Source: Tropicimonas marinistellae (lineage in GTDB: Bacteria > Pseudomonadota > Alphaproteobacteria > Rhodobacterales > Rhodobacteraceae). Taken from it: 64,000 nt of DNA. The position numbers and the translations under genes are program-made. Numbering within the stretch: position 1 is the first letter of the stretch; each line of letters starts with the position of its first letter. This document shows, piece by piece, positions 11,527-33,555 of the stretch. A model generated the notes under the pieces. It searched no databases. It saw only the letters and a list, made by a program, of their open reading frames with translations, and was not told where the DNA came from. The DNA is taken from assembly GCF_001509585.1 (NCBI RefSeq), contig NZ_LNCI01000007.1:124001-188000 (forward strand), written 5' to 3'.

Positions 11527-12210
11527 CTACCACGGCACAGATGTACCGTCGTAATTGATGTGCATTCCGCTTTGCTCCGACGTCGCGTTCTCCACAACCT
11601 GCCGCATCGCCGACACCGACTCCTCGGGTGTGGGGCCTCCTGCATTGTCCAACATGCGCGTCTGCTCCCTCCCGGGACGGAGCGCTAGGCAGATGCAGCC
11701 CCACGGTTTCCACTCCATCGCCAACGACCGCCACAGCTGGTTCAACGCCGCTTTCGAGGCGCGATAGGTGAAGTGGCGTTTGCCGGCGTAGGTGCCATTG
11801 GACGCCGCGAGGCTCGAAATCTCGACAAGCGTCTTCTTCTCGCCGGCCTTGAGATTCTCCTCGATCAGCGTGGCAAGACGGAACGGCGCCCAGGTATTCG
11901 TCAACATCATCCGCTGCCAGTGGGCTTCATCAATCTCTTCCGGTGCAAGCTCCTTGCCGTCGTCAATACCAGCATTCATGATCGCCACGTCGATCGCGTG
12001 CCCCCTGAGCCGGGTCGCGACATCGGCGACGGATGCTTCGTTCAGCCCGTCGTAGCGTAGCTCTCGTGCGCCTGGACCAAGTTCGACGATGTCCATCGGC
12101 TTGAATGGCGTCCGGTTGGCAGCAAGCACTTCCCAGCCATCCGCCGCATATTGACGAGCGAATTCCAGCCCGATGCCACGGTTGGCGCCGGTGATCAGAA
12201 CGGTAGGCAT
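11527..12210 (-). CDS. Short-chain dehydrogenase/reductase
   Basis: 227 aa from ATG 12210 (MPTVLITGANRGIG). Classical SDR: dinucleotide motif 'TGANRGIG', 'NAG' in 'IMNAGIDDG', catalytic Ser in 'VEISSLAASNG', and the Tyr-Lys pair in 'YRASKAALN'. It is the second gene of a tandem pair with the SDR at 12236-12910, 25 bp apart. It ends against the flavodoxin remnant on the other strand. Substrate unknown; being just left of the shared-operator region, it may belong to the catabolic regulon. Confidence 0.85.
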   Translation of the reverse strand: MPTVLITGANRGIGLEFARQYAADGWEVLAANRTPFKPMDIVELGPGARELRYDGLNEASVADVATRLRGHAIDVAIMNAGIDDGKELAPEEIDEAHWQRMMLTNTWAPFRLATLIEENLKAGEKKTLVEISSLAASNGTYAGKRHFTYRASKAALNQLWRSLAMEWKPWGCICLALRPGREQTRMLDNAGGPTPEESVSAMRQVVENATSEQSGMHINYDGTSVPW

Positions 12211-12235
12211 TGGGGCATTCCTTTCACGAGAATGA

Positions 12236-12910
12236 TCACCATGGGACGTCCAGCCCGTCGTAGCCAATGATCCGGCCTGCATCCGCTGGTGTCAGCCCCT
12301 CGACCACGCGTTTCATGCCGGCGACGCTTTCCTCGACGGCCAAACCCTGCCCCCCGGTCATATCCGTCGCAACAAAGCCGGGCCGCAGAAGCACGCAGGT
12401 CAGGCCTTCGGGCTCCCACTCCAGCGTCAGCGCACGCCAGATGGCGTTCAACCCGGTCTTCGAGGCGCGATAGCTGTACTGCGTACCCCAGTCGTTCGCC
12501 TGGATTGAACTCATCAGGCTCGACATCGCCGTGGCGATGCGCTTTTCGCCGGCCAGAAGGTTTGGCTTCAACGCCGTTGCCAGTGCCAGCGGCGCATAAG
12601 TGTTGGTGCCGACGACCTGCAGGAATTCTTCCTTCGTGACCTCGGAGGGTTTCGCTTCGAGGTTGATGGCAATGCCGGCGTTGGCGATCAGAACGTCAAT
12701 TGGCCTTCCGTTCAACGCAGCGACCAGGGCTGCGATCGAATCGGGATCTGTCGCTTCGAGCGGCAGAACCTCGGCGCCGGTGGCGCGAAGGGCGTCGGCC
12801 GCCTCGGGACGACGCGCGGTGCCGATAACCTGCCAGCCGTCATCGGCGAACTGTCGTGCGAGTTCCAGACCGATACCCCGGTTCGCGCCCGAAATGAGGA
12901 TGGTAGCCAT
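12236..12910 (-). CDS. Short-chain dehydrogenase/reductase
   Basis: 224 aa from ATG 12910. SDR signatures: 'SGANRGIG' for NAD(P), 'LIANAGIAI', the catalytic Ser near 'ATAMSSLMSS' and Tyr-Lys in 'YSYRASKTGLN'. A paralogue of the downstream SDR with a shared C-terminal 'YDG(T/L)xVPW' ending, so a tandem duplication. It is divergent from the ABC operon at 13214 and its promoter region carries two GntR-type inverted repeats, suggesting co-regulation with the importer. Confidence 0.85.
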   Translation of the reverse strand: MATILISGANRGIGLELARQFADDGWQVIGTARRPEAADALRATGAEVLPLEATDPDSIAALVAALNGRPIDVLIANAGIAINLEAKPSEVTKEEFLQVVGTNTYAPLALATALKPNLLAGEKRIATAMSSLMSSIQANDWGTQYSYRASKTGLNAIWRALTLEWEPEGLTCVLLRPGFVATDMTGGQGLAVEESVAGMKRVVEGLTPADAGRIIGYDGLDVPW

Positions 12911-12985
12911 CCGGTGCCTTTCATCGTGTTGCGTCATTCCACATGCCGACGGCTGATTCGGCAGCAATCCACACATGGTGTGTCA

Positions 12986-13008
12986 TTGGTATTCCAATGT
13001 CATACCAA
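12986..13008. promoter_or_regulatory. Putative GntR operator, TTGGTAT-N9-ATACCAA
   Basis: Inverted repeat with arms 12986-12992 and 13002-13008; the left part also reads TTGGTATTCCAA. It lies between the divergent SDR (start 12910) and ABC ATPase (start 13214). Same core as sites at 13139, 16179, 20436, 21957, 29351 and 31762. Confidence 0.55.
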
Positions 13009-13138
13009 AGAACAAGAAAGGCCGGTGACACTGAGCCGCCTTCGTCGCGGAAACGCACAATCGCGCAGCAGTTTGGTACGAATGTGGACCGTTGTGCCCC
13101 GAAAACGGGCTGCGATGCCAATCGAGTCGGTGTACAGC

Positions 13139-13152
13139 TGGTATGCCATACC
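13139..13152. promoter_or_regulatory. Putative GntR operator, TGGTATGCCATACC
   Basis: GGTATG-C-CATACC at 13140-13152 is a perfect inverted repeat and includes the 10-mer TGGTATGCCA shared with the site at 16179. It lies 61 bp before the start of the ABC ATPase gene at 13214, a position suited to repression. Confidence 0.6.
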
Positions 13153-13213: not shown

Positions 13214-14044
13214 ATGGCAACGGTATCCCAGCTAAAATCCGCGCGCCCCTCCCACTCGGGCAAGACACAGACGCTGATCGAACTCGCCCACGCGGGGGTG
13301 ACGTTCCAGAGCCGGACGGGCGACGCGCTCGTGGCCGTCGAGGATTTCAACCTTCGTATCCAAGATGGTGAAATCGTCTCGCTCGTTGGACCGTCGGGCT
13401 GCGGCAAGTCCACAGTCCTGCGGATGCTGGCCGGGCTACAGCAGCCGACGACTGGCGACATCTGGATCGGCGGTGGCAGGCAGCGGCGGGGGTTTTCCGA
13501 GGTGGCCATCGTTTTCCAGCGGCCGACGCTGCTGCCGTGGCTGTCGGTGCTGAAAAACGTGCTCTACCCCGTGCGCGCCTTGCGGCGGACGACCGCGGCC
13601 GACCGCAGCCGCGCACAGGAACTGCTTGAAGTGGTGGGCCTGGGCGACATGGGAGCGCGAATGCCACACGAGCTATCGGGTGGCATGCAGCAGCGCGCGT
13701 CGATCGCTAGGTCGCTGATCCTCGATCCGAAGATATTGCTCATGGACGAACCCTTCGGCGCGCTCGACGCGCTCACGCGCGAAGACCTGCAACTCGACCT
13801 TCTCGACATCCATGCCTCCACCGGCAAGACGATCCTGCTGGTGACCCATTCGATCAACGAGGCGGTCCTGCTGTCGGATCGTGTGGCGGTCATGTCGACC
13901 CGGCCGGGGCGGCTTCAGGAGTTGATCTCCATCGACATCCCGACGCCACGCTCGCACGAGACCCCGGCACATCCTGCCTTTCATCACTACGCCGGCCGGA
14001 TCCGAGACGACATTTTCGGACCGAACGCAAGGAGCCGCGCATGA
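13214..14044 (+). CDS. NitT/TauT-type ABC transporter ATP-binding protein
   Basis: 276 aa. Walker A 'GPSGCGKST', Q-loop 'VFQRPTLLPWLSV', signature 'LSGGMQQRASIARSL', Walker B 'ILLMDEPFGALDA' and H-loop 'LVTHSINEA' are all intact. The 'RxTLLPW' Q-loop and closeness to a SsuC-like permease mark the nitrate/taurine/sulfonate importer family (SsuB/TauB/ThiZ-like). Overlaps the permease by 4 bp. The partner binding protein is probably the gene at 16241. Imports a small organic nitrogen or sulfur compound; the substrate cannot be read from sequence. Confidence 0.92.
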   Translation: MATVSQLKSARPSHSGKTQTLIELAHAGVTFQSRTGDALVAVEDFNLRIQDGEIVSLVGPSGCGKSTVLRMLAGLQQPTTGDIWIGGGRQRRGFSEVAIVFQRPTLLPWLSVLKNVLYPVRALRRTTAADRSRAQELLEVVGLGDMGARMPHELSGGMQQRASIARSLILDPKILLMDEPFGALDALTREDLQLDLLDIHASTGKTILLVTHSINEAVLLSDRVAVMSTRPGRLQELISIDIPTPRSHETPAHPAFHHYAGRIRDDIFGPNARSRA

Positions 14045-14808
14045 GCCCCTCTGCCCGCAAGATCGTTTTACCGATCCTCGCATTCGCCTTGTTCCTCGGC
14101 CTGTGGGAGGCAATCAGCGTCTCGCTGGACATCCCTGTCTACCTCCTGCCCTCGCCGAGCGCGATCTGGGCGGGCGGCGCAAAGTTGGGCATGACGCTGC
14201 TCACCAACACGGCCGTGACGCTGAAGACGATCCTTCTGGGCTTTGCGCTTTCCTGCGCGGTCGGTATTCCATTGGGCGTGCTGGTTTCGGTCAACCGGCT
14301 GACTTCCGAGGCGATCTATCCGCTGATCGTCTTCCTGAACGCGATCCCGATTATCTCCATCGCGCCGATACTCGTGGTGATCTTCGGCACGGATGAGACG
14401 ACGCGGCTGATCATCGTGACGCTGACGGCGTTCTTCCCGATCATGGTGGCCACGGCGACCGGCATCATGGACACACCGCACGAGATGTTGGACCTGTCCC
14501 GCGTCGCCGGGGCTGCTCCGGTGACTGAAATCCTAACCATCCGCCTGCCGCACGCGGTGCCGTTCATCTTCGGCGGGCTCCGGATCGGCGTGACGGTAGC
14601 AGTGATCGGCGCCGTTGTGGCCGAGTTCGTAAATGCGAACCGCGGGCTTGGGTTCCTCGTGACCTCGTCAACCGCACAGTTCGCCATTCCGACCGCGATG
14701 GCCTGCGTGGTCATGCTCGCGGTTGTGTCGGTGATCCTCTACGAGTCGGTCAACTGGATCCACCGGCTTCTGTTTTCCTGGTCGTTGAGGAACGATCCCG
14801 GCAAATAA
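14041..14808 (+). CDS. NitT/TauT-type ABC transporter permease
   Basis: 255 aa with about six membrane segments, starting with 'IVLPILAFALFLGLWEAIS'. The BPD_transp_1 EAA-loop region reads 'ARVAGAAPVTEILTIRLPHA' with an 'RLPHAVPFIFGGLRIG' coupling helix. Start overlaps the ATPase stop (ATGA). It forms the import complex with the preceding ATPase; the divergent M20 hydrolase separates it from the nearest binding protein. Nothing looks broken. Confidence 0.9.
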   Translation: MSPSARKIVLPILAFALFLGLWEAISVSLDIPVYLLPSPSAIWAGGAKLGMTLLTNTAVTLKTILLGFALSCAVGIPLGVLVSVNRLTSEAIYPLIVFLNAIPIISIAPILVVIFGTDETTRLIIVTLTAFFPIMVATATGIMDTPHEMLDLSRVAGAAPVTEILTIRLPHAVPFIFGGLRIGVTVAVIGAVVAEFVNANRGLGFLVTSSTAQFAIPTAMACVVMLAVVSVILYESVNWIHRLLFSWSLRNDPGK

Positions 14809-14858: not shown

Positions 14859-16070
14859 TCAGGCGGCTTCGCCCCTGTCGCTACCGGCTTCGGGCGAGTT
14901 CAGCTCCTGGTCCGTAAGCGAAATCCAGTAAGCCGCGCCGTGGCACAATGCCTCATCGTTGAAGTCGTAGTCGGGCCGATGGTTGCTCGTCCACTTCGGG
15001 TCATCGCCATTGCCCATCATCACATTGCACCCCGGCCGCTTGAGCAGCATGAAGGCAAAATCGTCGGCGGCGTTGATCGGCGGGTTGTCCGGATCGACAT
15101 TCTCCGTACCCACCAGCGCCGAGGCGGCAGCGACAGCCTTGTCCCGTTCGGCCAGCGTGTTCACCAGTGCGGGATAGCCGCGCTGATAGTCGATGCTGGC
15201 GGTGCATCCCGACATTGCCGCGGCGCCCTCGGCCACCTCCTTCAGGCGCTTTTCAATCTCGTCCTGCACTGCCGGGTCGTGGATACGCGACGTGCCATGA
15301 ATGCGGATGTCAGAGGGGATCACGTTATTGGCCGAACCCGCTTCGATCATACCGATCGACAGCACTGCCGAATCCTGAGCCGAAACATTGCGGGAGGTGA
15401 TCGCGTGGATACCGAGGATCGTGTGCGCCAGCGGCACCGTCGGATCGGTCCCCTTCTCGGGCGAACCGCCGTGGCCGCCGGTGCCGTGCAACCCGATCAC
15501 CCAGTGGTCGACCGCAGCGAGTTGCGGCCCGACACGGGTGACAAACTTGCCGACCGGGATACCCGGCTTGTTGTGAAGCGAATAGACCGCGTCGCAGGGG
15601 AATCGCTCGAACAGCCCATCGTCGATCATCGCTTGCGCGCCGGCGCCGCCCTCCTCAGCGGGTTGGAAGATGCAATGCACGGTGCCGCCGAAGTCCGGGT
15701 TCTCGGCGAGGTAGCGGGCGGCATAGAGCAACATCACGGTATGCCCGTCATGGCCGCAGCCGTGCATCTTGCCGGAAATCTTCGAGGCATGGGCGAAGGT
15801 GTTGCCCTCGGTCATGTTGAGCGCGTCCATATCGCCCCGGAACCCGATGGCGCGGTTCCCGGGCCGATTGCCCCGGATCGAGGCGACGACGCCGGTGACG
15901 CCCAGACCCGCCTCGAACGGGATACCCCACTCCGTCAGTTTGTCCTGCACAAGTTGCGAGGTCCGAAACTCCTCGTAACTCGTTTCCGGATGCATGTGGA
16001 TGTCGTGGCGCAGGGATGTCATCTCCGCCTCCTGACTTCGAAGGGTTTTCCTAACCTTGTCCAAATCCAT
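14859..16070 (-). CDS. M20-family amidohydrolase (hippurate hydrolase/aminoacylase-like)
   Basis: 403 aa from ATG 16070, with AAAGGAGAAC ahead of it. Motifs of M20D peptidases: 'RHDIHMHPETSYEE', 'GFRGDMDAL', metal site 'MHGCGHDGHTVML', 'IFQPAEEGG' (catalytic Glu) and the dimerisation-domain 'GTGGHGGSPEKGTDP'. The family removes N-acyl or N-carbamoyl groups from amino acids with two metal ions in the cytoplasm. It is divergent from the binding protein at 16241 and shares an intergenic region carrying the regulon operator. In this context it could act on an N-carbamoyl or N-acyl intermediate. Confidence 0.9.
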   Translation of the reverse strand: MDLDKVRKTLRSQEAEMTSLRHDIHMHPETSYEEFRTSQLVQDKLTEWGIPFEAGLGVTGVVASIRGNRPGNRAIGFRGDMDALNMTEGNTFAHASKISGKMHGCGHDGHTVMLLYAARYLAENPDFGGTVHCIFQPAEEGGAGAQAMIDDGLFERFPCDAVYSLHNKPGIPVGKFVTRVGPQLAAVDHWVIGLHGTGGHGGSPEKGTDPTVPLAHTILGIHAITSRNVSAQDSAVLSIGMIEAGSANNVIPSDIRIHGTSRIHDPAVQDEIEKRLKEVAEGAAAMSGCTASIDYQRGYPALVNTLAERDKAVAAASALVGTENVDPDNPPINAADDFAFMLLKRPGCNVMMGNGDDPKWTSNHRPDYDFNDEALCHGAAYWISLTDQELNSPEAGSDRGEAA

Positions 16071-16178
16071 ACCGTTCTCCTTTCGGGACTGTCGCGGGTG
16101 CACTTTTTTTGTGCCGTTCGTCTGGAACGCACCGCGCGGGGGCGTCCTTCAGTGGACGATACACCGTTGGCACTCTAC

Positions 16179-16188
16179 TGGTATGCCA
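16179..16188. promoter_or_regulatory. Putative GntR operator TGGTATGCCA
   Basis: Ten-base near-palindrome in the divergent region between the M20 hydrolase (start 16070) and the binding protein (start 16241). Identical to the core at 13139-13148. Confidence 0.55.
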
Positions 16189-16240: not shown

Positions 16241-17218
16241 ATGAGACTTCTCACGACGAGCGCACTCTGCGGCCTCGCGATAGGCGCCACTGCCCAGATC
16301 GCAGGTGCTACCGACGAGGTGGATTTCCAGCTCGACTGGACACCGGGCGGCATCTCGGCCGCCTATTACCTCGGCGTCGAGAAGGGATGCTTTACCGATC
16401 AGGACATCGACGTCACCATCTCGCGCGGCTACGGCGCGGCGGACGCGGTGACGAAGGTTGCGACCGGTGTCGCCGATTTCTCGGTGACCGATCTCGGCGT
16501 AATCATCGGCTCGATCGCCGAAAGCGGTGCGCCGGTGAAGGCGATCATGCCCATCGTTGCACAGTCACCCATGGCGATCGCCGTGATGGCCGACAGCGAC
16601 ATCGGTGAGCTGAAGGATCTTGAGGGCCATTCCATCGCCTCGTCGGTCGGTAACGCCGCGATGGCATTCCTTCCGCTTGGGATGGAGGTCGTGGGAGGCG
16701 ACATGTCCAAGGTCGAGATCATCACGGCCGAAGGCTCGGCGCTGACGGGGCTGCTGCTGCAGAAGCGGGTCGACGCGCTGGCCAGCTACATCACCTCGGT
16801 CAAGCGGATCGACGCCATCGCTGCCAAGTCCGGAATGGAGGTGCGGGGCATCCACTACGGTAGCGCGCTCGACATCTACAACGCTTCGATTTTCACGTCC
16901 GACGCGATGATCGCCGAGAACCCGGACCTCGTGAACCGGTTCAAGGCGGCAATCGAATGCACCTACGACGAAGCCCGCGCGGACCCGGCCGCGGCCGTAG
17001 ACGCAATCGTCGCCGGGGTCGAGGGGATGCAGCGCGACACGCAGACCGACATGGTGCCGTTCTCCTTTGGCTTCGCTTTCGACAACCCCGTGTTCGAAGC
17101 GAACGGTTATGCCTTCGATATCGACCGGGTCGCGCACAACATCGCGATCGTCGACAAGGTAACGCCGTTGTCGACGGAGCTGACGCCCGAAGACGTGGTC
17201 TACGTTCCCGCAGAATAA
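16241..17218 (+). CDS. ABC substrate-binding protein, NMT1/THI5-like
   Basis: 325 aa. Start ATG 16241 follows AACAGGAGAGA and opens a signal peptide (MRLLTTSALCGLAIGATAQIAGA); longer in-frame starts lack these. The mature protein has the NMT1/SsuA pattern: 'FQLDWTPGGISAAYYLGVEKG', 'AVTKVATGVADFSVTDLG', 'LEGHSIASSVGN' and 'GLLLQKRVDALASYIT'. Periplasmic partner of a NitT/TauT-type importer, most likely that at 13214-14808. A paralogous but divergent binding protein is at 22033. A strong hairpin follows its stop. Confidence 0.9.
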   Translation: MRLLTTSALCGLAIGATAQIAGATDEVDFQLDWTPGGISAAYYLGVEKGCFTDQDIDVTISRGYGAADAVTKVATGVADFSVTDLGVIIGSIAESGAPVKAIMPIVAQSPMAIAVMADSDIGELKDLEGHSIASSVGNAAMAFLPLGMEVVGGDMSKVEIITAEGSALTGLLLQKRVDALASYITSVKRIDAIAAKSGMEVRGIHYGSALDIYNASIFTSDAMIAENPDLVNRFKAAIECTYDEARADPAAAVDAIVAGVEGMQRDTQTDMVPFSFGFAFDNPVFEANGYAFDIDRVAHNIAIVDKVTPLSTELTPEDVVYVPAE

Positions 17219-17283: not shown

Positions 17284-18213
17284 ATGCCGCTCATCACTGC
17301 CCGCTCCAATGGTGTCTTCACCATCTCGGCCACCCCATTTGCCGAGGACGGATCACTCGACCTCGACAGCACCGACCGCTTGACCGATTTCTACGCTCAG
17401 GAGGGCGCGAGCGGGCTGACGATCCTTGGCATGATGGGCGAGGCACCCAAGCTCACGCAGCCCGAAGCCCGGGCTTTCGTGGAGCGGGTGATCGCCCGCG
17501 CCCCCGACCTGCCGGTGGTCGTTGGGGTTTCGGCGTCCGGGCTCGCCGCGATCTCTGAGTTGACCAAGGCGGTTATGGACCTGGGCGCCGCTGGCGTGAT
17601 GGTCGCGCCGCCCTCGACGCTCACCACAAATGAAACGATCGAGGCCTATTACGCCAATGTCGTCGACGCCATTGGAACCGACGTCCCTCTGGTGTTGCAG
17701 GACTTTCCCCTGTCGACGAAAGTTCCGATCTCGATTCCCACGCTCGGCCGAATATTCGAGGCGCATCCCTCCATCGTCATGCTAAAGCACGAGGACTGGC
17801 CGGGGCTGGCCAAGATATCCGCGCTGCGCGCGGCCGAGGCCGAGGGGCGCCGCCGGACGGCGATCCTATGCGGCAATGGGGGCATGTTCCTACCCGAAGA
17901 GATGGCCCGCGGCGCCGATGGCGCGATGACCGGATTCTGCTTCCCGCAGATGATGGCCGCGGTCTGCAAGCTGATGACCGCGGGCGAGACCGAGTACGCG
18001 CGGGACGTTTTTGACGCCTACATGCCGCTGGTGCGCTACGAGCAGCAACCGGGCGTCGGGCTTGCCGTGCGCAAGTACGTGTTCCATTCGCGCGGCATCA
18101 TTGCCTCGTCGAAGATCCGCTCCCCAGGCGCGCCGCTCGCTCCGGCAGCGGTTAAGGAGGTCGAGACCATCATCCGCCGGCAGGAAGCACGTCTCGCAGA
18201 GCTTTCCGCCTGA
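17284..18213 (+). CDS. Dihydrodipicolinate synthase-family lyase/aldolase
   Basis: 309 aa TIM barrel. 'GLTILGMMGEAPKLTQPE' matches the GTTGE region of the DHDPS/NAL family, and Lys168 in 'IVMLKHEDWPG' is the Schiff-base lysine. The Tyr usually found in the 'YNxP' strand is replaced ('LVLQDFPLSTKV', residues 137-146), so true DHDPS activity is unlikely. It follows the binding protein by 65 bp on the same strand and so is probably co-regulated. It likely cleaves or hydrates a 2-keto acid produced late in the pathway; that is inference. Confidence 0.85.
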   Translation: MPLITARSNGVFTISATPFAEDGSLDLDSTDRLTDFYAQEGASGLTILGMMGEAPKLTQPEARAFVERVIARAPDLPVVVGVSASGLAAISELTKAVMDLGAAGVMVAPPSTLTTNETIEAYYANVVDAIGTDVPLVLQDFPLSTKVPISIPTLGRIFEAHPSIVMLKHEDWPGLAKISALRAAEAEGRRRTAILCGNGGMFLPEEMARGADGAMTGFCFPQMMAAVCKLMTAGETEYARDVFDAYMPLVRYEQQPGVGLAVRKYVFHSRGIIASSKIRSPGAPLAPAAVKEVETIIRRQEARLAELSA

Positions 18214-20329: not shown

Positions 20330-20435
20330 TCGTCCTTCCTTTCCCGGCCCGCAGCCCTGCCCGCTCAAAAAAGCGGCAAACGCCTACGTGAATCAATTTC
20401 GCACTCTCACCGTGCCTTGACGCCTCGCGTACCAT

Positions 20436-20445: not shown

Positions 20446-20553
20446 TTGGAGCACCTAATGGAAGATGTTTCGCGTGTGACTCTCTGCGCGCTAGCTTCCT
20501 TGCTTCCCACCGGCCGCCCGACCCCGCGGCCTAACAACGACCGGAGCCTCAAC

Positions 20554-25872: not shown

Positions 25873-26877
25873 TCAGATATCCAGGACGAGGCGTCCGGAC
25901 TTGCTGCCGGAGCAGCAGATCAGCATCACCTTGTTCGAAGCCCGCTCGCGCTCACTGAGGATCGTGTCCTTGTGGTCGGGCTCGCCTTCGAGAACCCGCG
26001 TCTCGCAGGTGCCGCAGACGCCCGAGCGGCAGGAATATGCGACACGGATACCGTTCTCCGAGAGGACTTCCATGATCGTGCGGCCAGCCGGAACCTGGAA
26101 TTCCTGACCCCGGCGCTTGAGCACGACGGTGAAGCTCTCGGTCGAGGCTTCAAACTCGTTCTTGAAGTGCTCGACATGAACGGCCTCGGGATCGCGGGCG
26201 GCTGAGGCCTCGGTGAAGGCGGCGATCATCGGCTCCGGGCCACAGCAGTAGAGATGCGCATCTGACGCGGCCGCGGCCACGCGCGGGGCGATTTCCATGA
26301 CGGCACCGGTCAACGCGTCATCGTGTAGGTGCAGCGTACCGGTCGAGGCGGCGGCCAGTGCGCGGACTTCCGGCAGGTAGGCAGCTAGCGCCTCGGCGCG
26401 AAAGGCATAGTGGAGTTCCCACGGCGTGCCGAGCGCAGCGCAGGCCCGGATCATAGAGAGGATCGGCGTTATACCGATGCCGCCTGCGAAGAAGCAGAAG
26501 CGCGGTGCGTCGGCCAGCGGGAAGGTGTTTGTCGGAACCGAGACCTGCAGCGTCGCGCCGACGCGGAGGTCTTCGACGAGGAAGGCCGAGCCGCCGCGGC
26601 TGGCGGGATCCCGGTTGATCGCCACGAGAAAACGCTGATCGTCGCCCGGCTCGTTGACCAATGAATAGCTGTTCGAGACGTCGCCGGGGAGCGCAAGGTC
26701 GATATGGGCGCCGGCCTCCACCCCCTCGAGACGGCCACCATCAGGTCGGCGAAACTCGATCTCGCGGATCGTCTCTGCCAGGTAGCGGATCGCGGTAACG
26801 CGCAACGCCAACGACCCGCCTTCATTGCCCTGTGCCGGCGCTGTCGCGCCGGCACTGATCATTTCCTGCATTGTCAT
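25873..26877 (-). CDS. Rieske-oxygenase reductase (phthalate dioxygenase reductase type)
   Basis: 334 aa. The N-terminal half is a ferredoxin-NADP-reductase-type flavin/NAD module ('NSYSLVNEPGD' for the flavin, 'FFAGGIGITPILSMI' and 'LYCCGPEPMI' for NAD). The last ~90 residues are a plant-type [2Fe-2S] ferredoxin with 'YSCRSGVCGTCETRVL' and the fourth Cys in 'MLICCSGS'. This FMN-NAD-Fd order is that of VanB/OphA1-like reductases. It starts 3 bp after the Rieske oxygenase stop and must pass electrons from NAD(P)H to it. Confidence 0.92.
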   Translation of the reverse strand: MTMQEMISAGATAPAQGNEGGSLALRVTAIRYLAETIREIEFRRPDGGRLEGVEAGAHIDLALPGDVSNSYSLVNEPGDDQRFLVAINRDPASRGGSAFLVEDLRVGATLQVSVPTNTFPLADAPRFCFFAGGIGITPILSMIRACAALGTPWELHYAFRAEALAAYLPEVRALAAASTGTLHLHDDALTGAVMEIAPRVAAAASDAHLYCCGPEPMIAAFTEASAARDPEAVHVEHFKNEFEASTESFTVVLKRRGQEFQVPAGRTIMEVLSENGIRVAYSCRSGVCGTCETRVLEGEPDHKDTILSERERASNKVMLICCSGSKSGRLVLDI

Positions 26878-26880: not shown

Positions 26881-28215
26881 TTACTCGGCCGCTGAGAGGT
26901 CGGGCCGGTAGCCTTTGGCTTCGGCCATCTTCTCCTCGTAGCCGTCCAGCCAGTCGGTGCCCTTCGGCACGATGATGTCGCCACCGCGCGCGTTCTGGGC
27001 GTATTCCGGATGGTCGACGAAGTCGGGCAACTTCTTGTTGTTGCGCCACTCAATTGCGGCGTCGAGCATGACGCGCCGGGTCAGGATGACCATGCGGTCC
27101 GACGCGGCGAGGTGTTCCAATGTGCGGTCCACGACGTGGCCCATGCTTTCCTGGATGGCCTGGTCCTGCAGCGGGACACCGACGATGCCGGTGTAGCTGT
27201 CGCCGTTGCGCTGCCATTCACGATCGATGCCGTAGTCGTTCGAGGCATCCTTGACCGGGCGCCAGCGGCCCTTCCAGTCGGTCGTGGTCGGCAGGTATTC
27301 CAGCGGCCGCTCCAGCCCACCGACGGGCGTGCCGTCCTTGTACTTCAGCTTTTTCTTGCCTCCCCCCTCGGACCGCGAGAGGTCGATGTTGAAGATCATC
27401 GTCGAGTCGTCGTCGATCGGCACCCAGGCGTTCACGGTCTTGCTGGACGCGAGGCCGCCGCCACCGGGGTAGGTGACCCAGAACGGATAGAGGTAGCAGG
27501 CGTAGCGCTGGTGCTCGTGACCTTCCATCGCGTCGCGCTGCGCCGAATACATCGTACCGAAGTTAGTCGTCGTCACGTTGATCTTCGGCGATTTCTCGGT
27601 AACCGTGAACACTTCAGGATCCGACAGATCGAGCTTTTCGCCATCGATACCGCCCACGTGCAGGAAACCAAGGTGCGAGGTGTCGATGTCGCCTTCCAGC
27701 GCTTGCATGTAGTTGCAGTCGCGGTGGGTCAGCGCAATGTTGCGGTCGTCGCCGTCACCCATGATTGCGTCAATCTCGGGCAGAGGCGGTGGGTTGTCCT
27801 GGCGCTCGCCGAAATACGCGAAGACGATTCCGCCGGATTCACAGGTCTTGTAGGCATAGGCCGGGGTGCCGGCAGGATATTTGTTCTTGTCCTCAAGGTT
27901 TGGTTGGTCGAGGCACTTGCCGGTCACGTCGAATTTCCAGCCGTGATAGGCGCAGCGAATGCCGCCCTTCTCGTTCCGACCGAAGAACAGCGAGGCGCAG
28001 CGGTGCGGGCAGCGGTGGTCCATGACGCCGACGCGGCCCTCGGTGTCGCGGAATCCGATCAGCTTCTCGCCTAGGATCATCAGGCGCACCGGGTCGCCGT
28101 CGGCGACCAACTCGGACGACAGGCAGACCGGCGTCCAGAACTGGCGGAAGAACTCTCCCATCAGTGTGCCCTTGCCGACCGAGCAGAGGTCTACGTTTTC
28201 TTCAGCGGTGATCAT
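26881..28215 (-). CDS. Rieske non-heme iron oxygenase, phthalate 4,5-dioxygenase-like
   Basis: 444 aa from ATG 28215. Rieske cluster ligands: Cys69-x-His71 ('DHRCPHRCAS') and Cys88-x2-His91 ('RCAYHGWKF'). The mononuclear iron site is seen in 'EGDIDTSHLGFLHVG' (His181, His186, with Asp176 or Asp178 bridging). Length and motifs fit the one-component-hexamer phthalate/vanillate demethylase branch, which acts on carboxylated or N-substituted rings and demethylates. Start is 11 bp after the nitrilase-like gene stop, and the reductase follows, so a three-gene operon. Probably the ring- or N-methyl-oxidising step. Confidence 0.92.
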   Translation of the reverse strand: MITAEENVDLCSVGKGTLMGEFFRQFWTPVCLSSELVADGDPVRLMILGEKLIGFRDTEGRVGVMDHRCPHRCASLFFGRNEKGGIRCAYHGWKFDVTGKCLDQPNLEDKNKYPAGTPAYAYKTCESGGIVFAYFGERQDNPPPLPEIDAIMGDGDDRNIALTHRDCNYMQALEGDIDTSHLGFLHVGGIDGEKLDLSDPEVFTVTEKSPKINVTTTNFGTMYSAQRDAMEGHEHQRYACYLYPFWVTYPGGGGLASSKTVNAWVPIDDDSTMIFNIDLSRSEGGGKKKLKYKDGTPVGGLERPLEYLPTTTDWKGRWRPVKDASNDYGIDREWQRNGDSYTGIVGVPLQDQAIQESMGHVVDRTLEHLAASDRMVILTRRVMLDAAIEWRNNKKLPDFVDHPEYAQNARGGDIIVPKGTDWLDGYEEKMAEAKGYRPDLSAAE

Positions 28216-28225: not shown

Positions 28226-29299
28226 CTAGAGTTCGACGGTCGAAGCCGGATCTTCGGCTCCGGCAGAAAGAGGCACGAGCACGCCGGCCGCTTCGAGGTT
28301 GGCCCGCGCCTGCGCAATGGCGCCGTGGGTTTCGCTTGCGTGTTTCATCGGTGAGGCACGGAATTGGTCCGGCGGGTAGAAATGCGCGTCGGCGTAGAAC
28401 GGAACGTACATCTCGTAGCGCGCCCGCAGGTGCGGGTTCGACAAGCCGGTATCATTGCGGCGGTCGGCGCGCAGGCGTTCAATGTCGATCAGGGCCGAGA
28501 CATTGGTGCCTTCGGCGTCGCCCTCCTCGAATGCCAGCGTCTGCCCCCAGTGGTCGAGGATGTGCGAACGGCCGCCGGTGAAGGTGCCGTCCGGCGAGAA
28601 TCCGATTGGCCCGGCGACATTGGCCGAGACCATGTAGATCATGTTCTCGGCGCAACGGGCGAGTTTCGCTGCCTCCTGCGCCGCGGAATAGCGCGAATTC
28701 GTGGGGTGCAGAATGACCTCGGCGCCTCCGAACATCATGCAACGCGCGACCTCGGGCACCGTGATCTCGCCGCAGGCGATGATGCCGATCTTGCCCAGCG
28801 GCGTGTCGGCAACCGGGAAGACCTGGTCCTTCGGCGTCGCCTTCATGTAGTCGGACAGGAAGTCATGCACCGAAGGGAAGGCCGCTACGTTCACTCTCCG
28901 GTAGCGGTAAATCACGTCACCGTCGGGTCCGATCATGATGCAGGTGTTGAAATATCGGCCGGGCCATTCCTCGGGCGCTTCGAACACATTGCCCGCGATG
29001 TATATCCCTTCGCGTTTGGCCAATGCCTGTAGGGGCTCCGTCAGTGGGCCCGGTACGGTCGAACAGGCGCGTCGGATCCAATCCTCGACGGCCATGCCCA
29101 AAGGTGGCCCCTGCATTCCGAACTCGGGAAAAACCACGAGGTCCGGACGTTCGGGCTCGGCCAGCGCTACCTCGATAAGGCCGATCATCCGGGATTGGTT
29201 GCGGGCGATCACCTGCCAGCCGCCGGCATCGTCGGCGGCCTGACAGGCTCGTTCACACTGCATCTGGATGCAGGTCGCGCGCCAGGGCGGCATCGTCAT
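28226..29299 (-). CDS. Nitrilase-superfamily carbon-nitrogen hydrolase, paralogue
   Basis: 357 aa from ATG 29299 (AAGGAGA upstream). Same key positions as the enzyme at 20554: Glu59 ('VFPEFGMQG'), Arg135 ('YRYRRVN') in place of Lys, Cys176 ('IIACGEITVPE'). The opening 'PPWRATCIQM' is shared too. It heads the operon with the Rieske oxygenase and reductase, so amide hydrolysis is tied to the oxidative step. Two copies in two operons of the same regulon suggest two related substrates or successive steps. D-carbamoylase-like activity is possible but unproven. Confidence 0.87.
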   Translation of the reverse strand: MTMPPWRATCIQMQCERACQAADDAGGWQVIARNQSRMIGLIEVALAEPERPDLVVFPEFGMQGPPLGMAVEDWIRRACSTVPGPLTEPLQALAKREGIYIAGNVFEAPEEWPGRYFNTCIMIGPDGDVIYRYRRVNVAAFPSVHDFLSDYMKATPKDQVFPVADTPLGKIGIIACGEITVPEVARCMMFGGAEVILHPTNSRYSAAQEAAKLARCAENMIYMVSANVAGPIGFSPDGTFTGGRSHILDHWGQTLAFEEGDAEGTNVSALIDIERLRADRRNDTGLSNPHLRARYEMYVPFYADAHFYPPDQFRASPMKHASETHGAIAQARANLEAAGVLVPLSAGAEDPASTVEL

Positions 29300-29350
29300 A
29301 GGATCTCCTTCTGACATGAGGCCTGAACTCAGGTGCCAATTGCGCACCGT

Positions 29351-29360
29351 TGGTATACCG
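29351..29360. promoter_or_regulatory. Putative GntR operator TGGTATACCG
   Basis: Near-perfect palindrome TTGGTATACCGA (29350-29361) in the divergent region between the nitrilase-like operon (start 29299) and GntR gene (start 29590), 51 bp before the former. A half-site ATACCAA occurs at 29505. Confidence 0.6.
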
Positions 29361-29589
29361 ACAGTCTGCCGCCATTTCCTGGGGCATTCAAGACCCTCGC
29401 AACACCAGTGTCACGGCTCGGCAGGAATACAGTGCAGTGCCTAAAAAATCCGCACTCCCGACGGCGACGCGCCAAACGCTCAGCGCATGCCGCTTGGGAA
29501 CGGGATACCAAGGGCATTCCGGCGGTTCCAATAGAGGCAAAGGATTGTTAGAACATGCCCCAAGAGGAGAGGCAAAGGACTGCAGGCAA

Positions 29590-30267
29590 ATGGAAACCAA
29601 CGCGACCTTGGACGTGACTGCGCTCCATGACAAACCGACCCGCACCAACGAGGTCTACGAGCAGATTATCGACATCCTGATCCGAGGCGAACTGCGCCCG
29701 GGCGACGTCATTGTGGAACGCCGGATGGCCGAACGTCTAAACGCCTCGCGCACCCCGGTCCGCGAAGCTCTCGGACGGCTGGAGGCCGAGCGGATGGTGC
29801 TGCGACAGCCCGGTCGTGGCGTTATCGTTGCCCCCTTTTCGACCGAAGCCTTCGTCGAGATCCTGAATATCCGCCAGCTTCTGGAGTCAGAGGCGGCCCG
29901 GCTCGCCGCCGGGCAAATCCCTCCCGAGACGATTGCCGAGATCCGCGCAGCGATGAAGGCTCTCTCCGAAGAGCCGGAGCAGACGCCCGCTGAGGTTTGG
30001 AGAACCGACAACCTGCTGCATGGCGCGATTGCCGAAGCCTCTGGAAGCGAGTTGATGGCAGCGATGATCAGCGACCTTCGGCGCCGGACCCACGTGTTCA
30101 ACGCCTTCCGGAACCCAGACAACCATATCTACCAATACGAAGAAAACGCCAAGCTGCTGGACGCGATAGAGAGCGGCGACGGAGAGACCGCGCGCGAGGC
30201 GATGTCGGACCACATCGAGACGGTGAAGGTTGCGATCGTCAACCGGCTTGCGAGGCTTACGCGCTGA
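29590..30267 (+). CDS. GntR-family regulator with FCD domain
   Basis: 225 aa from ATG 29590. Wing-HTH 'GDVIVERRMAERLNASRTPVREALGRLEAE' and an FCD domain with 'TDNLLHGAIAEASGS' and 'SDHIETVKVAIV'. An in-frame extension upstream to 29350 overlaps the operator and was rejected. Paralogue of the regulator at 19643. Divergent from the Rieske operon. The duplicated regulators plus duplicated nitrilases and ABC systems suggest the region grew by duplication or merging of two modules. Confidence 0.9.
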   Translation: METNATLDVTALHDKPTRTNEVYEQIIDILIRGELRPGDVIVERRMAERLNASRTPVREALGRLEAERMVLRQPGRGVIVAPFSTEAFVEILNIRQLLESEAARLAAGQIPPETIAEIRAAMKALSEEPEQTPAEVWRTDNLLHGAIAEASGSELMAAMISDLRRRTHVFNAFRNPDNHIYQYEENAKLLDAIESGDGETAREAMSDHIETVKVAIVNRLARLTR

Positions 30268-30316: not shown

Positions 30317-31666
30317 TCAGGCCGAGCGTCGCGCGTAGGTGCCCGGCGTCTCTTCGGTGACGGCCTTGCCGTTCCACGCAAGCACACCATTCACATAGGT
30401 CGCAACGGTCGTCGCCGCGAAGGTCATGCCATCATAGGCGCTCCATGACGAACCTTCCGGTATGAGGGCCGAATTGTAAACGACCTCGCCCGGCGCCAGC
30501 ACCGCAATGTCGGCGTCGCAACCCGGCTCCAAACGCCCCTTGGTTGCAAGTCCGAAAAAGTCTGCGGGGCCTTCGGCCAGCAGCGCGGCCGTCAGGCAGG
30601 CAGCCATTTCGACCGAACCGGTACGGCGCAACGCTTCGGTGTAGAAGCCCGGCAACAAGGTCTCCAGCCCCGGCATCCCGGCCGCCACCTCGAAGATGTT
30701 GTCGGACGCCTTGCGCTCCAACCCCCAGGCGGAATGGTCGGACGACACGAACGCTGCGCCACCATCCTCGATCACCTGCCAAAGCGCATCGCGCACGCCC
30801 GAACGTATCGGCGGATTCACCTTCAGCTTCGGTCCAAGCTTCGGCATGTGCTCGTCCGCGTCGAACAACAGGTAATGCAGGCACATCTCGGCGCTTGCCT
30901 TCTCACCGCGCGCTGCGTGCTCAGCGACAAGCTCGAACCCCTCCGGGATCGAGATGTGAACGATATGGGCGTGACCGCCAAGCGAAGCGCCAAGCTCGAG
31001 GAAGGTCGCTGTCGCCGACATTTCGGCCACCGGCGGTCGCGAGGGGGAGTGATCCAGCGGCGTCGTCCGGCCCTCGGCGCGGAACTTTGCCTCGGTCGCG
31101 CGGATCACCTCCTGATCTTCGTTGTGCAGCCCGACGGGCAGACCGGTGCCATCCAACGACTCAAACAGCGTCAGGACCGCGTCCGACCCGATGCGGGGAA
31201 AACGGTGGGGATGCGCCTCGAAGGACGAGATCTTGAAAGCCGCCACTCCCGCCTCGACCAGTCCGCGGATATCGGCGGGGTCGGGCTCGGTAGGGATGGT
31301 GGCGTAGAGCGCCACATTGGTGTGGGCCAGTTCCTCGATCGCGGCGACCTTCTGCTCCAGCAAGTCCACTGTCATGATCGGATCGGGATGGTCATACGGC
31401 ATGTCGACGATCGTGGTCACCCCACCGATGGCTGCCGCCTTCGTGGTCGGTGCGATGCCGGCAAAGCCCCACTGGCTGCCGGCATGGGTTTGGCCGTCGA
31501 TCGCCCCGGGCAAGATAAACGACTCGCCGTGATCGATGGTCTTCGATGCTTCCGGCGCTTCGCCTTCCCCCAGCGACACAATGCGGCCACCGGCGATGCC
31601 CAGCCAACCTTCCGTCACGCTGCGACCGGGCAGCACCAGCCGCCCCTTCAAGACGAGATCGAGCAT
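30317..31666 (-). CDS. Hydantoinase/dihydropyrimidinase-like cyclic amidohydrolase
   Basis: 449 aa from ATG 31666 (AAGGAGG). Cyclic amidohydrolase fold of the allantoinase/hydantoinase/dihydroorotase group. Expected residues: Lys145 in 'AAFKISSF' (carboxylated, metal-bridging), His181 in 'GLHNEDQEV', His237 in 'HIVHIS', Asp310 in 'VSSDHSAW'. The first metal motif, normally HxH, reads 'IDGQTHAG', Gln59-x-His61. 'GAIDGQ' type variants are known in some dihydroorotase-like branches. Opens a cyclic imide, ureide or lactam ring; divergent from the NIPSNAP/RidA/racemase operon with an operator between. Confidence 0.88.
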   Translation of the reverse strand: MLDLVLKGRLVLPGRSVTEGWLGIAGGRIVSLGEGEAPEASKTIDHGESFILPGAIDGQTHAGSQWGFAGIAPTTKAAAIGGVTTIVDMPYDHPDPIMTVDLLEQKVAAIEELAHTNVALYATIPTEPDPADIRGLVEAGVAAFKISSFEAHPHRFPRIGSDAVLTLFESLDGTGLPVGLHNEDQEVIRATEAKFRAEGRTTPLDHSPSRPPVAEMSATATFLELGASLGGHAHIVHISIPEGFELVAEHAARGEKASAEMCLHYLLFDADEHMPKLGPKLKVNPPIRSGVRDALWQVIEDGGAAFVSSDHSAWGLERKASDNIFEVAAGMPGLETLLPGFYTEALRRTGSVEMAACLTAALLAEGPADFFGLATKGRLEPGCDADIAVLAPGEVVYNSALIPEGSSWSAYDGMTFAATTVATYVNGVLAWNGKAVTEETPGTYARRSA

Positions 31667-31761: not shown

Positions 31762-31771
31762 TGGCATACCA
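31762..31771. promoter_or_regulatory. Putative GntR operator TGGCATACCA
   Basis: Perfect extended form TTGGCATACCAA at 31761-31772, between the hydantoinase-like gene (start 31666) and the NIPSNAP operon (start 31833). Confidence 0.6.
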
Positions 31772-31832
31772 AATGTGTGCACAGTCCGTGCCATCCCGTC
31801 AACCCGTCCCGGACCACTTCCTGCGAGACCAC

Positions 31833-32447
31833 ATGATCTACGACCTCACCACACTTGCTCTACTGCCGAACACGCTGGGAGCAGTGATGCCTCTGCTGCC
31901 CGAAACCTATTCCAATTTTACCAGCACCGGTCGCATTCTCGGCGCGTTTTCCTGCGATTTCGGCGCGCTGAACCGCTTTCACTTCCTCACAGCCTATGAA
32001 AGCACTGAGGCACTGGCCGCGGAACGCGCGCGCCTGATGGAGACCGAAGATCCATACGGTATCGGCCAATATCTCGGCGGCGTCGACATGACGGCCTACA
32101 AGCCCTTCTCCTTCTGCGACGACATCGAGCCGGATGTGTACGGCCCTTTCTATGAGTTCCGCACCTACACCATGTCGCCCGGCGGCGTGCCGCAGACCGA
32201 CGCGGCCTGGGCGAAGATCATCGAGCGGCGCAACGAGATGTCGAAATTGCTGATGGTCATGGCCTCGATCGAGGAAGGCCCCCAGAAGATGGTTCACATC
32301 TGGCCGTACAAGTCGCTGGACGACCGCGTTGCCGCCCGAGCCCAGGCCGGCAAGGAAGGCATCTGGCCGCCCCCCGGCGGATCGGACTACCTGACTTCGC
32401 TGCAGTCCGAGCTGTTCCTGGCGACCGGGTTCTCGGACCTAAAATGA
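31833..32447 (+). CDS. NIPSNAP-family protein
   Basis: 204 aa starting MIYDLTTLALLPNTLG. It contains two ferredoxin-like repeats: one with 'GRILGAFSCDFGALNRFHFL' and one beginning 'YEFRTYTMSPGGVPQTDAAW' and continuing 'MVHIWPYKSLDDRVAARAQA'. The dimeric alpha-beta-barrel 'YE.R.Y...G' pattern is characteristic. Proteins of this family often accompany aromatic or N-heterocycle catabolism without a settled enzymatic role. First gene of a three-gene operon with 4-bp overlaps to RidA and the racemase. Confidence 0.8.
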   Translation: MIYDLTTLALLPNTLGAVMPLLPETYSNFTSTGRILGAFSCDFGALNRFHFLTAYESTEALAAERARLMETEDPYGIGQYLGGVDMTAYKPFSFCDDIEPDVYGPFYEFRTYTMSPGGVPQTDAAWAKIIERRNEMSKLLMVMASIEEGPQKMVHIWPYKSLDDRVAARAQAGKEGIWPPPGGSDYLTSLQSELFLATGFSDLK

Positions 32448-32923
32448 CGCCCGGCGACGCAGCCGTTCTGGCGCGGGCGGGGGTTGTCCTCCCGCCCGCG
32501 CAACCGCCTGTCGGAACCTTCGTCGCGGTAGTCGAAACCGGCGGCTTGCTGCACGTCTCGGGTCAGGCGCCTCTCGACCCGGCGGGCATCCCGTTACGGG
32601 GCCGCGTCGGGGACGAGGTGGATACCGGGGAAGCCCGCGCCCGGGCGCGCCGAACCGGCCTTGCGCTGCTGGCCGCCGTCGCGAGCGAACCCGGGCGGCT
32701 CTCCCGTGTCACCCGCGTTGTGCGACTTCTAGGCATGGTCAACGCCGTGTCAGACTTCACCGAAATCTCCGAAGTGCTCGACGGTTGCTCCGAACTTTTT
32801 ACCGGCATATTTCCCGGCGGCCATGCGCGTACCGATGTGGGCTTGCCCGCGCTTCCAAGCAACATCACGGTCGAAATCGAGGCAGTCTTCGCCATCGCGC
32901 CCAAGGCATCGGATCCGCAATGA
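32444..32923 (+). CDS. RidA/YjgF/YER057c/UK114-family protein
   Basis: 159 aa. Family features: 'FVAVVETGGLLHVSGQAPLD' N-strand, a central helix region ending 'LSRVTRVVRLLGMVN', and 'GHARTDVGLPALPSNITVEI' (Arg-x-x-x-G-LP, close to the substrate-binding Arg of RidA). RidA proteins hydrolyse reactive imines/enamines; related ones act in catabolic operons (e.g. aminoacrylate peracid reductase-like). ATGA overlaps on both sides tie it tightly to NIPSNAP and racemase. A deaminase step on an enamine intermediate is plausible. Confidence 0.85.
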   Translation: MTPGDAAVLARAGVVLPPAQPPVGTFVAVVETGGLLHVSGQAPLDPAGIPLRGRVGDEVDTGEARARARRTGLALLAAVASEPGRLSRVTRVVRLLGMVNAVSDFTEISEVLDGCSELFTGIFPGGHARTDVGLPALPSNITVEIEAVFAIAPKASDPQ

Positions 32924-33555
32924 CCAACGAGATCGTCGTTATCAATCCAAACAGTTCGACCACCGTGACACAGGTCATCCGCGATACCGTCGCGCCGCTC
33001 GGGCCGCGGTTTCACTGTGTCGACATCCCCGACGGGCCGACCACCATCGTCACGCAGGACGACGTCGACAGCGCTAGCCCGCGCGTTGCGGCCCTCGCCG
33101 CAGCCCAGTCGGAGCCGGCCGCCATCGTGATCGCCTGCTTCTCTGACCCCGGCCTTGCCGAAACCCGTGCCCGGCTGAACTGCCCGGTTGTTGGCATCCA
33201 GGAGGCCTCGGTCGCGGCAGCACTCGCACTCGCGCCCAAATTCGGCATTATCGCCCTATCGGAAGGCCCCATTGAGCGCCACCGCCGTCAGCTCGACGCT
33301 ATGGGTGTTCTGCACCGACTGGCGCTGGAGGTCGGTCTTAGCGGCGTCTCGGCCCAAGACGCGGGCCACGACCCAGCTCTCTACCCCCAGATCCTCGCCG
33401 CCGGCGAACGCCTGAAAGCCGCCGGCGCAGGGACAGTCATCCTGGGCTGCGGAGGATTCGGCCCACGTCGAGCCGTATTGCAGCGCGACCTTGGCCTGCC
33501 GGTCATCGACCCGGTGCTCGCCGCCGCAGCGGTGGCGCTGACGGTCACGGACTGA
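32920..33555 (+). CDS. Asp/Glu/hydantoin racemase-family protein
   Basis: 211 aa from ATG 32920, starting 'EIVVINPNSST' as in hydantoin racemases. The two catalytic cysteines are Cys73 ('IVIACFSDPG') and Cys177 ('VILGCGGF'). This cofactor-independent two-base family interconverts enantiomers of hydantoins, Asp/Glu, or isomerises maleate. With a hydantoinase-like enzyme opposite and nitrilase-type carbamoyl hydrolases nearby, the set resembles a hydantoin pathway. Last gene of the operon; transposase remnants follow. Confidence 0.88.
   Translation: MTNEIVVINPNSSTTVTQVIRDTVAPLGPRFHCVDIPDGPTTIVTQDDVDSASPRVAALAAAQSEPAAIVIACFSDPGLAETRARLNCPVVGIQEASVAAALALAPKFGIIALSEGPIERHRRQLDAMGVLHRLALEVGLSGVSAQDAGHDPALYPQILAAGERLKAAGAGTVILGCGGFGPRRAVLQRDLGLPVIDPVLAAAAVALTVTD

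Follow-up and report, generated by a model that had tools for sequence, protein, structure and literature searches.

Positions 11527 to 33555 of a 64,000-nucleotide stretch of the Tropicimonas marinistellae genome (contig NZ_LNCI01000007.1, positions 124,001 to 188,000; hereafter the window) hold a block of genes for two importers, a Rieske oxygenase with its reductase, a hydantoinase-like ring opener (Hyd), two nitrilase-fold proteins (Nit1 and Nit2) and two GntR regulators. More likely than not, this block is one GntR-controlled catabolic regulon for a nitrogen-heterocyclic compound. At the level of sequence, the gene content, the synteny, a palindrome common to the promoters and an exchange of the ring opener among relatives are established, and a cyclic ureide or imide is a probable intermediate of the pathway.

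A conserved block of catabolic genes

Searches of the window proteins with Pfam and NCBIfam bore out the gene content proposed by a first-pass annotation of the same DNA: every element that it named was detected between 11527 and 33555. The families comprise three short-chain dehydrogenases (SDRs), two NMT1/THI5-type binding proteins, two ATPase-permease pairs, an M20 hydrolase, a DHDPS-family protein, two CN_hydrolase proteins, a Rieske oxygenase (LigXa_C), a reductase (Fer2 and NAD-binding domains), an Amidohydro_1 protein, a NIPSNAP protein, RidA and an Asp/Glu/hydantoin racemase. The block also holds an MFS transporter (18220-19623) and the regulators GntR1 (29590-30267) and GntR2 (19643-20329), all absent from the earlier list. 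The genes run SDR1, SDR2, ABC1 (ATPase, permease and NMT1a) enclosing M20, the DHDPS-family gene, MFS, GntR2, Nit1 and ABC2 with NMT1b and SDR3, followed by the reductase, the Rieske oxygenase, Nit2, GntR1, Hyd, NIPSNAP, RidA and the hydantoin-racemase-like gene. Ortholog starts and the printed DNA indicate starts later than that of the longest frame for the Rieske oxygenase (~28215), Nit1 (~20554), DHDPS (~17284), NIPSNAP (~31833) and Hyd (~31666).

11527-12282, minus: SDR1, short-chain dehydrogenase (PF00106); adjoins SDR2 and ABC1 in relatives
12236-12913, minus: SDR2, short-chain dehydrogenase, start inferred (PF00106/PF13561); homologs 55-94% identical in 10 extended stretches
13214-14044, plus: ABC1 ATPase, NitT/TauT type (PF00005; ntrCD-like)
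14041-14808, plus: ABC1 permease (PF00528)
14859-16103, minus: M20 amidohydrolase (PF01546; TIGR01891 at 332 bits, cut-off 154)
16241-17218, plus: NMT1a, binding protein adjoining ABC1, start inferred (PF09084)
17284-18213, plus: DHDPS-family lyase or dehydratase, start inferred (PF00701)
18220-19623, minus: MFS transporter, start inferred (PF07690); grouped in 10/33 sets, window counted
19643-20329, minus: GntR2 regulator, start inferred; 41% identical to GntR1, in a common group with it
20554-21576, plus: Nit1, nitrilase-fold protein, Glu-Arg-Cys, start inferred (PF00795)
22033-23034, plus: NMT1b, binding protein adjoining ABC2, start inferred (PF09084)
23070-23903, plus: SDR3, short-chain dehydrogenase (PF13561); NCBIfam matches all below cut-off
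23924-24832, plus: ABC2 ATPase (PF00005)
24833-25663, plus: ABC2 permease (PF00528)
25873-26877, minus: oxygenase reductase, NAD-binding with C-terminal 2Fe-2S (PF00175, PF00111)
26881-28215, minus: Rieske oxygenase, LigXa/phthalate-dioxygenase type, start inferred (PF00355, PF19301)
28226-29299, minus: Nit2, nitrilase-fold protein, Glu-Arg-Cys, start inferred (PF00795)
29590-30267, plus: GntR1, FCD-domain regulator, start inferred (PF00392, PF07729)
30317-31666, minus: Hyd, hydantoinase/allantoinase-like amidohydrolase with Gln-x-His, start inferred (PF01979)
31833-32447, plus: NIPSNAP protein, start inferred (PF07978); 28/33 sets
32444-32923, plus: RidA-family protein, probable enamine/imine deaminase (PF01042)
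32920-33555, plus: hydantoin-racemase-like protein, start inferred (PF01177, 165 bits, cut-off 31)

When species genomes were scanned with the Rieske protein, 32 records came up at 63-96% identity, across which homologs of the other block proteins recur in similar order. About 30 named alphaproteobacterial records retain the block, either complete or for the most part, and much of the gene order is shared with Maritimibacter, Roseisalinus, Pseudooceanicola, Alloyangia, Celeribacter, Oricola, Rhizobium, Devosia, Kaistia and others; Devosia, Rhizobium and Celeribacter have cultured members. Grouping of the frames in 33 sets (the 32 records and the window, with Nit1 and Nit2 taken as one group and GntR1 and GntR2 as another) returned the Rieske oxygenase in 33, the reductase, the nitrilase-fold group and the GntR group in 30 each, NIPSNAP and NMT1b in 28, Hyd and DHDPS in 23, SDR3 in 21 and RidA in 19; these counts are lower bounds because many records are partial. 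In the extended stretches, the SDR1-SDR2-ABC1-M20-NMT1a segment is syntenic in Maritimibacter, Alloyangia, Celeribacter, Pseudooceanicola and Devosia, and is joined by DHDPS where the stretch reaches far enough. A close M20 homolog (63% or more) occurs in 12 of 29 genomes and, counted from coordinates, is linked to the block in 11.

Among 149 sampled genomes of the window's family, one of them from the same genus, no other Rieske match exceeds 39%, so that the block is patchy in its distribution. Plasmids yielded no close relative of the Rieske protein (69 records, all below 60%, E up to 1e-50) or of Nit1 (16 records, all below 60%, E up to 1e-20). A search of 372 genomes of the class gave Nit2 and NIPSNAP homologs at 29-41% identity, the window's own genome apart; 15 of their neighbourhoods showed no close match to the remaining block genes, with weak matches only, to ABC, SDR, MFS, TRAP or xanthine-dehydrogenase-type proteins. 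Rieske proteins at about 44-51% identity occur without the gene set. Taken together, the comparison supports the view of the block as one conserved unit with one gene set.

A palindrome shared by the block promoters

Reading of the promoter regions in the block brought out the palindrome TGGYATRCCA, a shape that we take to fit GntR/FCD operators. Its exact copies in the window lie at 13139, 16179, 21957 and 31762 only, all within the block (8 strand-matches at 4 places, with 0.54 expected and no total as high as 8 in 100 shuffles), and one-mismatch forms of a longer pattern stand at the promoters at 12986, 20435 and 29350. The sites, none with an assigned strand, are:

12984-12999: operator-like site TTGGTATTCCAA, one mismatch, longer-pattern form
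13139-13148: candidate operator TGGTATGCCA in the SDR2/ABC1 gap, exact; equivalent position in relatives
16179-16188: candidate operator TGGTATGCCA in the M20/NMT1a gap, exact; also in relatives
20435-20447: operator-like site TCGGTATGCCATT in the GntR2/Nit1 gap, one mismatch; exact form here in several relatives
21957-21966: candidate operator TGGCATACCA ahead of NMT1b, exact; also in relatives
29350-29362: operator-like site TTGGTATACCGAC in the Nit2/GntR1 gap, one mismatch; exact here in 28/32 relatives
31762-31771: candidate operator TTGGCATACCAA in the Hyd/NIPSNAP gap, exact

Since the pattern had been chosen from this window, the test was placed in the relatives. TGGYATRCCA occurs 63 times in the 637 kb of their 32 loci, some of which come from closely alike and thus not independent records, against 2 times in 772 kb of 48 control loci, which were obtained through Rieske matches of lower similarity; in the same 32 loci each of ten permuted palindromes had 0-4 copies. 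The copies fall in the GntR1/Nit2 (28/32 loci), M20/NMT1a, GntR2/Nit1 and SDR2/ABC1 gaps and ahead of NMT1b and NIPSNAP. Of all sites in relatives, extensions and window, 27/82 lie inside matched stretches, which we ascribe to over-long query frames. The single regulon envisaged by the first-pass annotation is thereby supported, as a set of genes under a shared operator-like site with predicted GntR binding. The site also suggests a ready reporter, in that a fusion to any block promoter should report the inducer.

Apparent exchange of the ring-opening enzyme

Hyd scores 464.7 bits against the ErtD model (NF058538, cut-off 600), 246 against allantoinase and 166 against D-hydantoinase (TIGR02033, cut-off 393). 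Being below the cut-offs of ErtD and TIGR02033 it can be assigned to neither family, and by these scores it is a member of the wider hydantoinase/allantoinase/ErtD group.

Among 30 genomes (loci L076, L096 and L097 stand outside this sample; L, G and C numbers are our labels for loci, genomes and contigs), Hyd was counted as present at 55% identity or more to the Hyd of L083 together with location in the block. By this rule 7/30 are without it, including four with homologs elsewhere (G536, G537 and G554 at 50-52%, G538 at 43%), and all 7 carry a different, true D-hydantoinase, 75-82% identical to the L076 enzyme. Six of these enzymes score 485-510 bits against TIGR02033, above its cut-off, and the one incomplete copy, in G554, scores 370. 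Such a D-hydantoinase, at 73% or more, is carried by 7/7 genomes without Hyd versus 1/23 with it (Fisher's exact test, 3.9e-6, a value that is overstated because the seven cases fall in few clades). A racemase-like gene follows the replacing enzyme in 6/7 (L239, L240, L242, L244, L246, L247). In Oricola and Celeribacter the D-hydantoinase lies behind SDR2-SDR1 and the palindrome, within the SDR2-SDR1 transcription unit, while in Pseudooceanicola sp. HF7 it is on another contig with an exact palindrome about 90 bp ahead of its frame.

Hyd thus appears to be replaced by D-hydantoinase as the ring opener among relatives. Because the enzyme taking its place is a true D-hydantoinase, in most cases accompanied by a racemase gene, we infer that the pathway includes a cyclic ureide or imide, in keeping with the N-heterocycle or cyclic ureide that had been suggested as its subject. 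A separate dihydropyrimidinase (576-605 bits), distinct from the replacing enzyme, is found in 12/13 genomes, and the window's own genome has a full-scoring one elsewhere (C23, 593 bits). Hydantoin racemases use two catalytic cysteines; the sequence of the racemase-like protein of the block holds CFSDPG and LGCGGFG, which may or may not supply such residues. The natural role of D-hydantoinase and hydantoin racemase has been described as unclear.

Ergothioneine and histidine side routes yield 5-substituted hydantoins, and the substrate might likewise be an imidazole compound oxidised to such a hydantoin. Hyd scores best, at 465 bits, with ErtD (hydantoin-5-propionate amidohydrolase), racemase and hydantoinase act on 5-substituted hydantoins, and the available text on the histamine route includes an enamine deaminase and amidases (PMC6467879). 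The ErtD score, however, stays under the cut-off, the histamine oxygenase of that text is an FAD-monooxygenase (PMC6467879), and thiamin-type importers would be unexpected, so that we regard an imidazole source as unlikely.

Importers, neighbouring genes and the source of the ring

Among the Foldseek matches listed, the NMT1b model is closest to ThiY (3ix1, N-formylaminopyrimidine, Z 30.5) and to a thiamin-bound protein (4nmy, Z 30.0), followed by Thi5 (25-29), CA3427 (24.3) and SsuA (23.1). Family scans of chosen frames around the relatives' copies found a TRZ/ATZ aminohydrolase beside the block, at 66% or more in six loci (L070, L083, L084, L086, L089, L104) and at 42% in L094, and a xanthine dehydrogenase in 5 genomes (L086, L088, L104, L208, L210) in two arrangements. 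Single cases are a nucleoside-phosphorylase (PNP)-family gene in L083 and a nucleoside-hydrolase domain in L211. The NMT1b model and these neighbours point to a pyrimidine- or purine-like ring. The L211 domain sits in a long frame (L211:10845-12467) together with a part resembling the end of a TRZ/ATZ aminohydrolase; the two may be truly fused, or the joint frame may be an artefact of sequencing.

A more specific version of the N-heterocycle reading is that the block degrades a substituted pyrimidine, either that of thiamin (HMP, formylaminopyrimidine) or another, with ThiY-like import, TRZ/ATZ deamination where present, oxidation and ring opening. The importer likeness to ThiY, the thiamin-bound protein and Thi5, the aminohydrolase in six loci and the D-hydantoinase/dihydropyrimidinase exchange would all suit it. 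Against this, the fold is common to the whole Pfam family and leaves the ligand open, such a route offers no obvious step for a DHDPS-type enzyme with a 2-keto acid substrate, and neither thiaminase nor an HMP-specific family is among the block families. We consider this version rather unlikely as it stands.

The neighbours also admit a modified purine or nucleoside, with base release, deamination, xanthine dehydrogenase, the Rieske oxygenase and an allantoin-like ureide opened by Hyd, itself allantoinase-like. The five neighbouring xanthine dehydrogenases, the PNP-family gene and the nucleoside-hydrolase domain would fit such a route, in which the lyase would have no role. Moreover, the window's own genome has its two xanthine dehydrogenases elsewhere (C12:236735 and C3:128193, both over the family cut-off), one of them adjoining frames read by eye as a permease and a guanine deaminase, and with the genes beside the block free of the palindrome (see below) a purine source seems quite improbable. 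Use of uric acid or a plain purine was ranked low on account of these separate loci. The ring may come from a pyrimidine, a purine or an imidazole.

Oxygenase, lyase and hydrolases

The Rieske protein exceeds the Pfam cut-offs for the Rieske domain (68.8 bits, cut-off 20.3) and LigXa_C (106.8 bits, cut-off 27), and its nearest solved chains are 7fhr (236 bits), 9ina (220) and 7fjl (215). Rieske oxygenases carry a Cys-x-His/Cys-x2-His cluster and a His-x4-His iron site; the cluster residues are present in 32/33 sequences, the frame being broken there in L098, and the iron-site histidines in 33/33. Arginines 207 and 244 of 7fjl presumably bind a carboxylate, and the alignment with the window protein keeps one of them.

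Nit1 and Nit2 are 46% identical and both carry the CN_hydrolase domain. The fold was compared for Nit2, whose model (pLDDT 89) resembles formamidase and aliphatic amidase (Z ~32 among the Foldseek matches listed). The M20 enzyme is nearest, among solved structures, to IAA-amino acid hydrolase, YxeP and N-acyl-glutamine aminoacylase, which are amide-conjugate hydrolases.

The DHDPS-like protein matches 3dz1, deposited as dihydrodipicolinate synthase, at 329 bits, and L-2-keto-3-deoxyarabonate dehydratase at 97 bits. DHDPS apart, the closest relative to which a function is assigned is a dehydratase, and the cleavage of a keto acid that the first-pass annotation had placed last is one possible role. 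In 23/23 sequences the LKHED lysine, which we take to be the Schiff-base residue, is kept, but a glutamine (LQDFP) stands where the usual residue is presumably tyrosine, which makes dehydration as likely as cleavage.

A proposed pathway and its relation to known systems

For the regulon as a whole we propose the following route. The two ABC importers, with binding proteins of thiamin-pyrimidine type, would import the compound, free or conjugated, and its release from amide conjugates would fall to the M20 enzyme. The Rieske oxygenase and reductase would then oxygenate the ring, with the SDRs as likely dehydrogenases, given their families. The resulting cyclic ureide or imide would be opened by Hyd, or by the true D-hydantoinase in relatives, with the racemase acting where chirality requires; this step is supported by the exchange of the enzymes and by the operator common to three genomes. 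The open-chain carbamoyl or amide product may be processed by the nitrilase-fold pair, RidA could strip the enamine or imine nitrogen, and the DHDPS-family enzyme would dehydrate or cleave a 2-keto acid.

The closest parallel in gene content is the hyu type of system (hydantoinase, racemase and N-carbamoylase), since a hydantoinase-type opener, a racemase and nitrilase-fold proteins stand together in the block, and in relatives a true D-hydantoinase is followed by the racemase gene in 6/7. Unlike those systems, the block adds a Rieske oxygenase, SDRs, RidA, NIPSNAP and a DHDPS-type enzyme, and its nitrilase-fold proteins are without the catalytic lysine. That established hydantoin pathways include no Rieske step, as had been claimed, agrees with one hydantoinase paper, the available part of which nowhere has the word 'Rieske' (PMC3546935).

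As regards chemistry, the nearest route found is that of the lumichrome (riboflavin) cluster of Nocardioides simplex, with a different oxygenase and partners. The accessible part of that report describes a Rieske oxygenase, pyrimidine-ring-opening hydrolases and a xanthine-oxidase-type enzyme, the last seen here only beside some relatives' copies (PMC12746152). It also describes alpha and beta oxygenase subunits, a separate ferredoxin and reductase, and a catechol dioxygenase, whereas the block has a LigXa-type oxygenase and one reductase (PMC12746152). Neither an alpha-beta Rieske oxygenase nor a catechol dioxygenase is among the block families found. With the phthalate-dioxygenase/LigXa-type oxygenases the block enzyme shares its domains, but differs in genomic context. 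The oxidative Rut and reductive Pyd pyrimidine pathways comprise amide hydrolysis, a RidA step (RutC) and a dihydropyrimidinase-type opening; in place of RutA or dihydropyrimidine dehydrogenase the block uses a Rieske oxygenase. No RutA flavin monooxygenase occurs among the block families, the only place where it was sought, the genome itself not having been searched for it. Of the Ert enzymes, ErtD is nearest to Hyd among NCBIfam models (465 of the 600 bits). Published routes for homarine, histamine and riboflavin were also weighed, and were either set aside or kept as alternatives.

No description of this gene set was found among the titles and abstract openings listed from the open-licence literature, the only literature searched, so that the block appears to combine recognisable families in an undescribed way, consistent with the earlier suggestion of an undescribed pathway. 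More broadly, and tentatively, many bacteria may make hydantoins or cyclic ureides through Rieske oxidation of a common N-heterocycle, D-hydantoinase and racemase may consume them, and the Glu-Arg-Cys pair may act in that route as amidases of a new type or as a partner without hydrolytic activity; we consider this generalisation doubtful. A conserved regulon that links hydantoinase-type enzymes, an oxygenase, importers and an operator-like site is a concrete place to seek their substrate.

Evidence against a single catabolic regulon

Several observations weigh against the reading of the block as one catabolic regulon. Some concern the enzymes. Glutamate and cysteine are kept in 53/53 Nit1/Nit2 proteins, with arginine in all 53 in place of the catalytic lysine, and a separate check found the same arginine in 22/22 nitrilase-fold proteins. 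In 20 loci with nitrilase homologs, 9 have this arginine together with serine for the cysteine, 10 have the normal lysine and cysteine, and 1 is Nit1 itself. Amide hydrolysis, a step of the originally suggested order, is uncertain, as Nit1 and Nit2 do not have the canonical lysine; the pair may be atypical amidases or have another function. The group with Glu-Arg-Ser in place of Glu-Lys-Cys (L149-L156, L166) is perhaps non-hydrolytic. In the hydantoinase metal site, His-x-His on the first strand (present in the aligned solved chains), all 24/24 Hyd sequences have Gln-Thr-His instead, with the first metal-binding histidine gone; glutamine at this position in 7/9 wider relatives (L215-L223) marks Gln-x-His as a subfamily trait.

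The exchange of ring openers follows clades, so that the seven cases go back to a small number of independent events. Of the genomes with Hyd, G553 has both enzymes and G532 a 61% D-hydantoinase copy. The other 4/7 replacing hydantoinases show no palindrome within the 10-11.5 kb examined. As for the operator, one-mismatch forms of the longer pattern also occur in coding DNA and outside the block, the xanthine dehydrogenase genes beside block copies have no palindrome, and in the window's own genome the palindrome occurs at 12 places versus 8 for the reversed control. Since this is no surplus, the case for the palindrome rests on its position and on the relatives. Importer folds, finally, are no proof of ligands.

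Gene content also varies: L096 and L097 (Rieske identity 63-64%) have Nit2 and ABC2 as the only companions and no palindrome, the L095 stretch is without nitrilase, NIPSNAP and RidA, and L082 has no ABC2, NMT1b or Nit1 inside its 10 kb flank. Such variants, in L095 and L082, would be natural if the block held several short pathways with a common regulator and place but different substrates, for example an aromatic-acid oxygenase and a separate hydantoin route. The common palindrome, the conserved order and the substitution of a different ring opener for Hyd within one regulon speak against this arrangement, which we judge improbable, and favour a single catabolic regulon.

Flanking genes and other palindrome sites

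A phage-type integrase (window 9731-10861) lies directly ahead of the block and is a conceivable means of its acquisition, given its patchy presence among relatives. After it comes a TRAP transporter (DctP, DctQ, DctM; window 34960-37804); the TRAP transporter and OsmC genes beyond 33555 have no match in the searched stretches of relatives.

Eight of the genomic places of the palindrome are outside the block. One (C39:54307) is within a frame, four are TGGCATGCCA and probably due to chance, one precedes a CoA-ligase-like frame, and two flank another GntR gene. This last pair (C39:402341 and C39:402708; positions 12342 and 12709 of locus L236) surrounds a regulator gene 29% like GntR1, beside frames that resemble, by eye, oxalyl-CoA decarboxylase, CoA transferase, formate-tetrahydrofolate ligase and an isochorismatase-type hydrolase; the locus may be a paralogous regulon that serves oxalate or a related acid.

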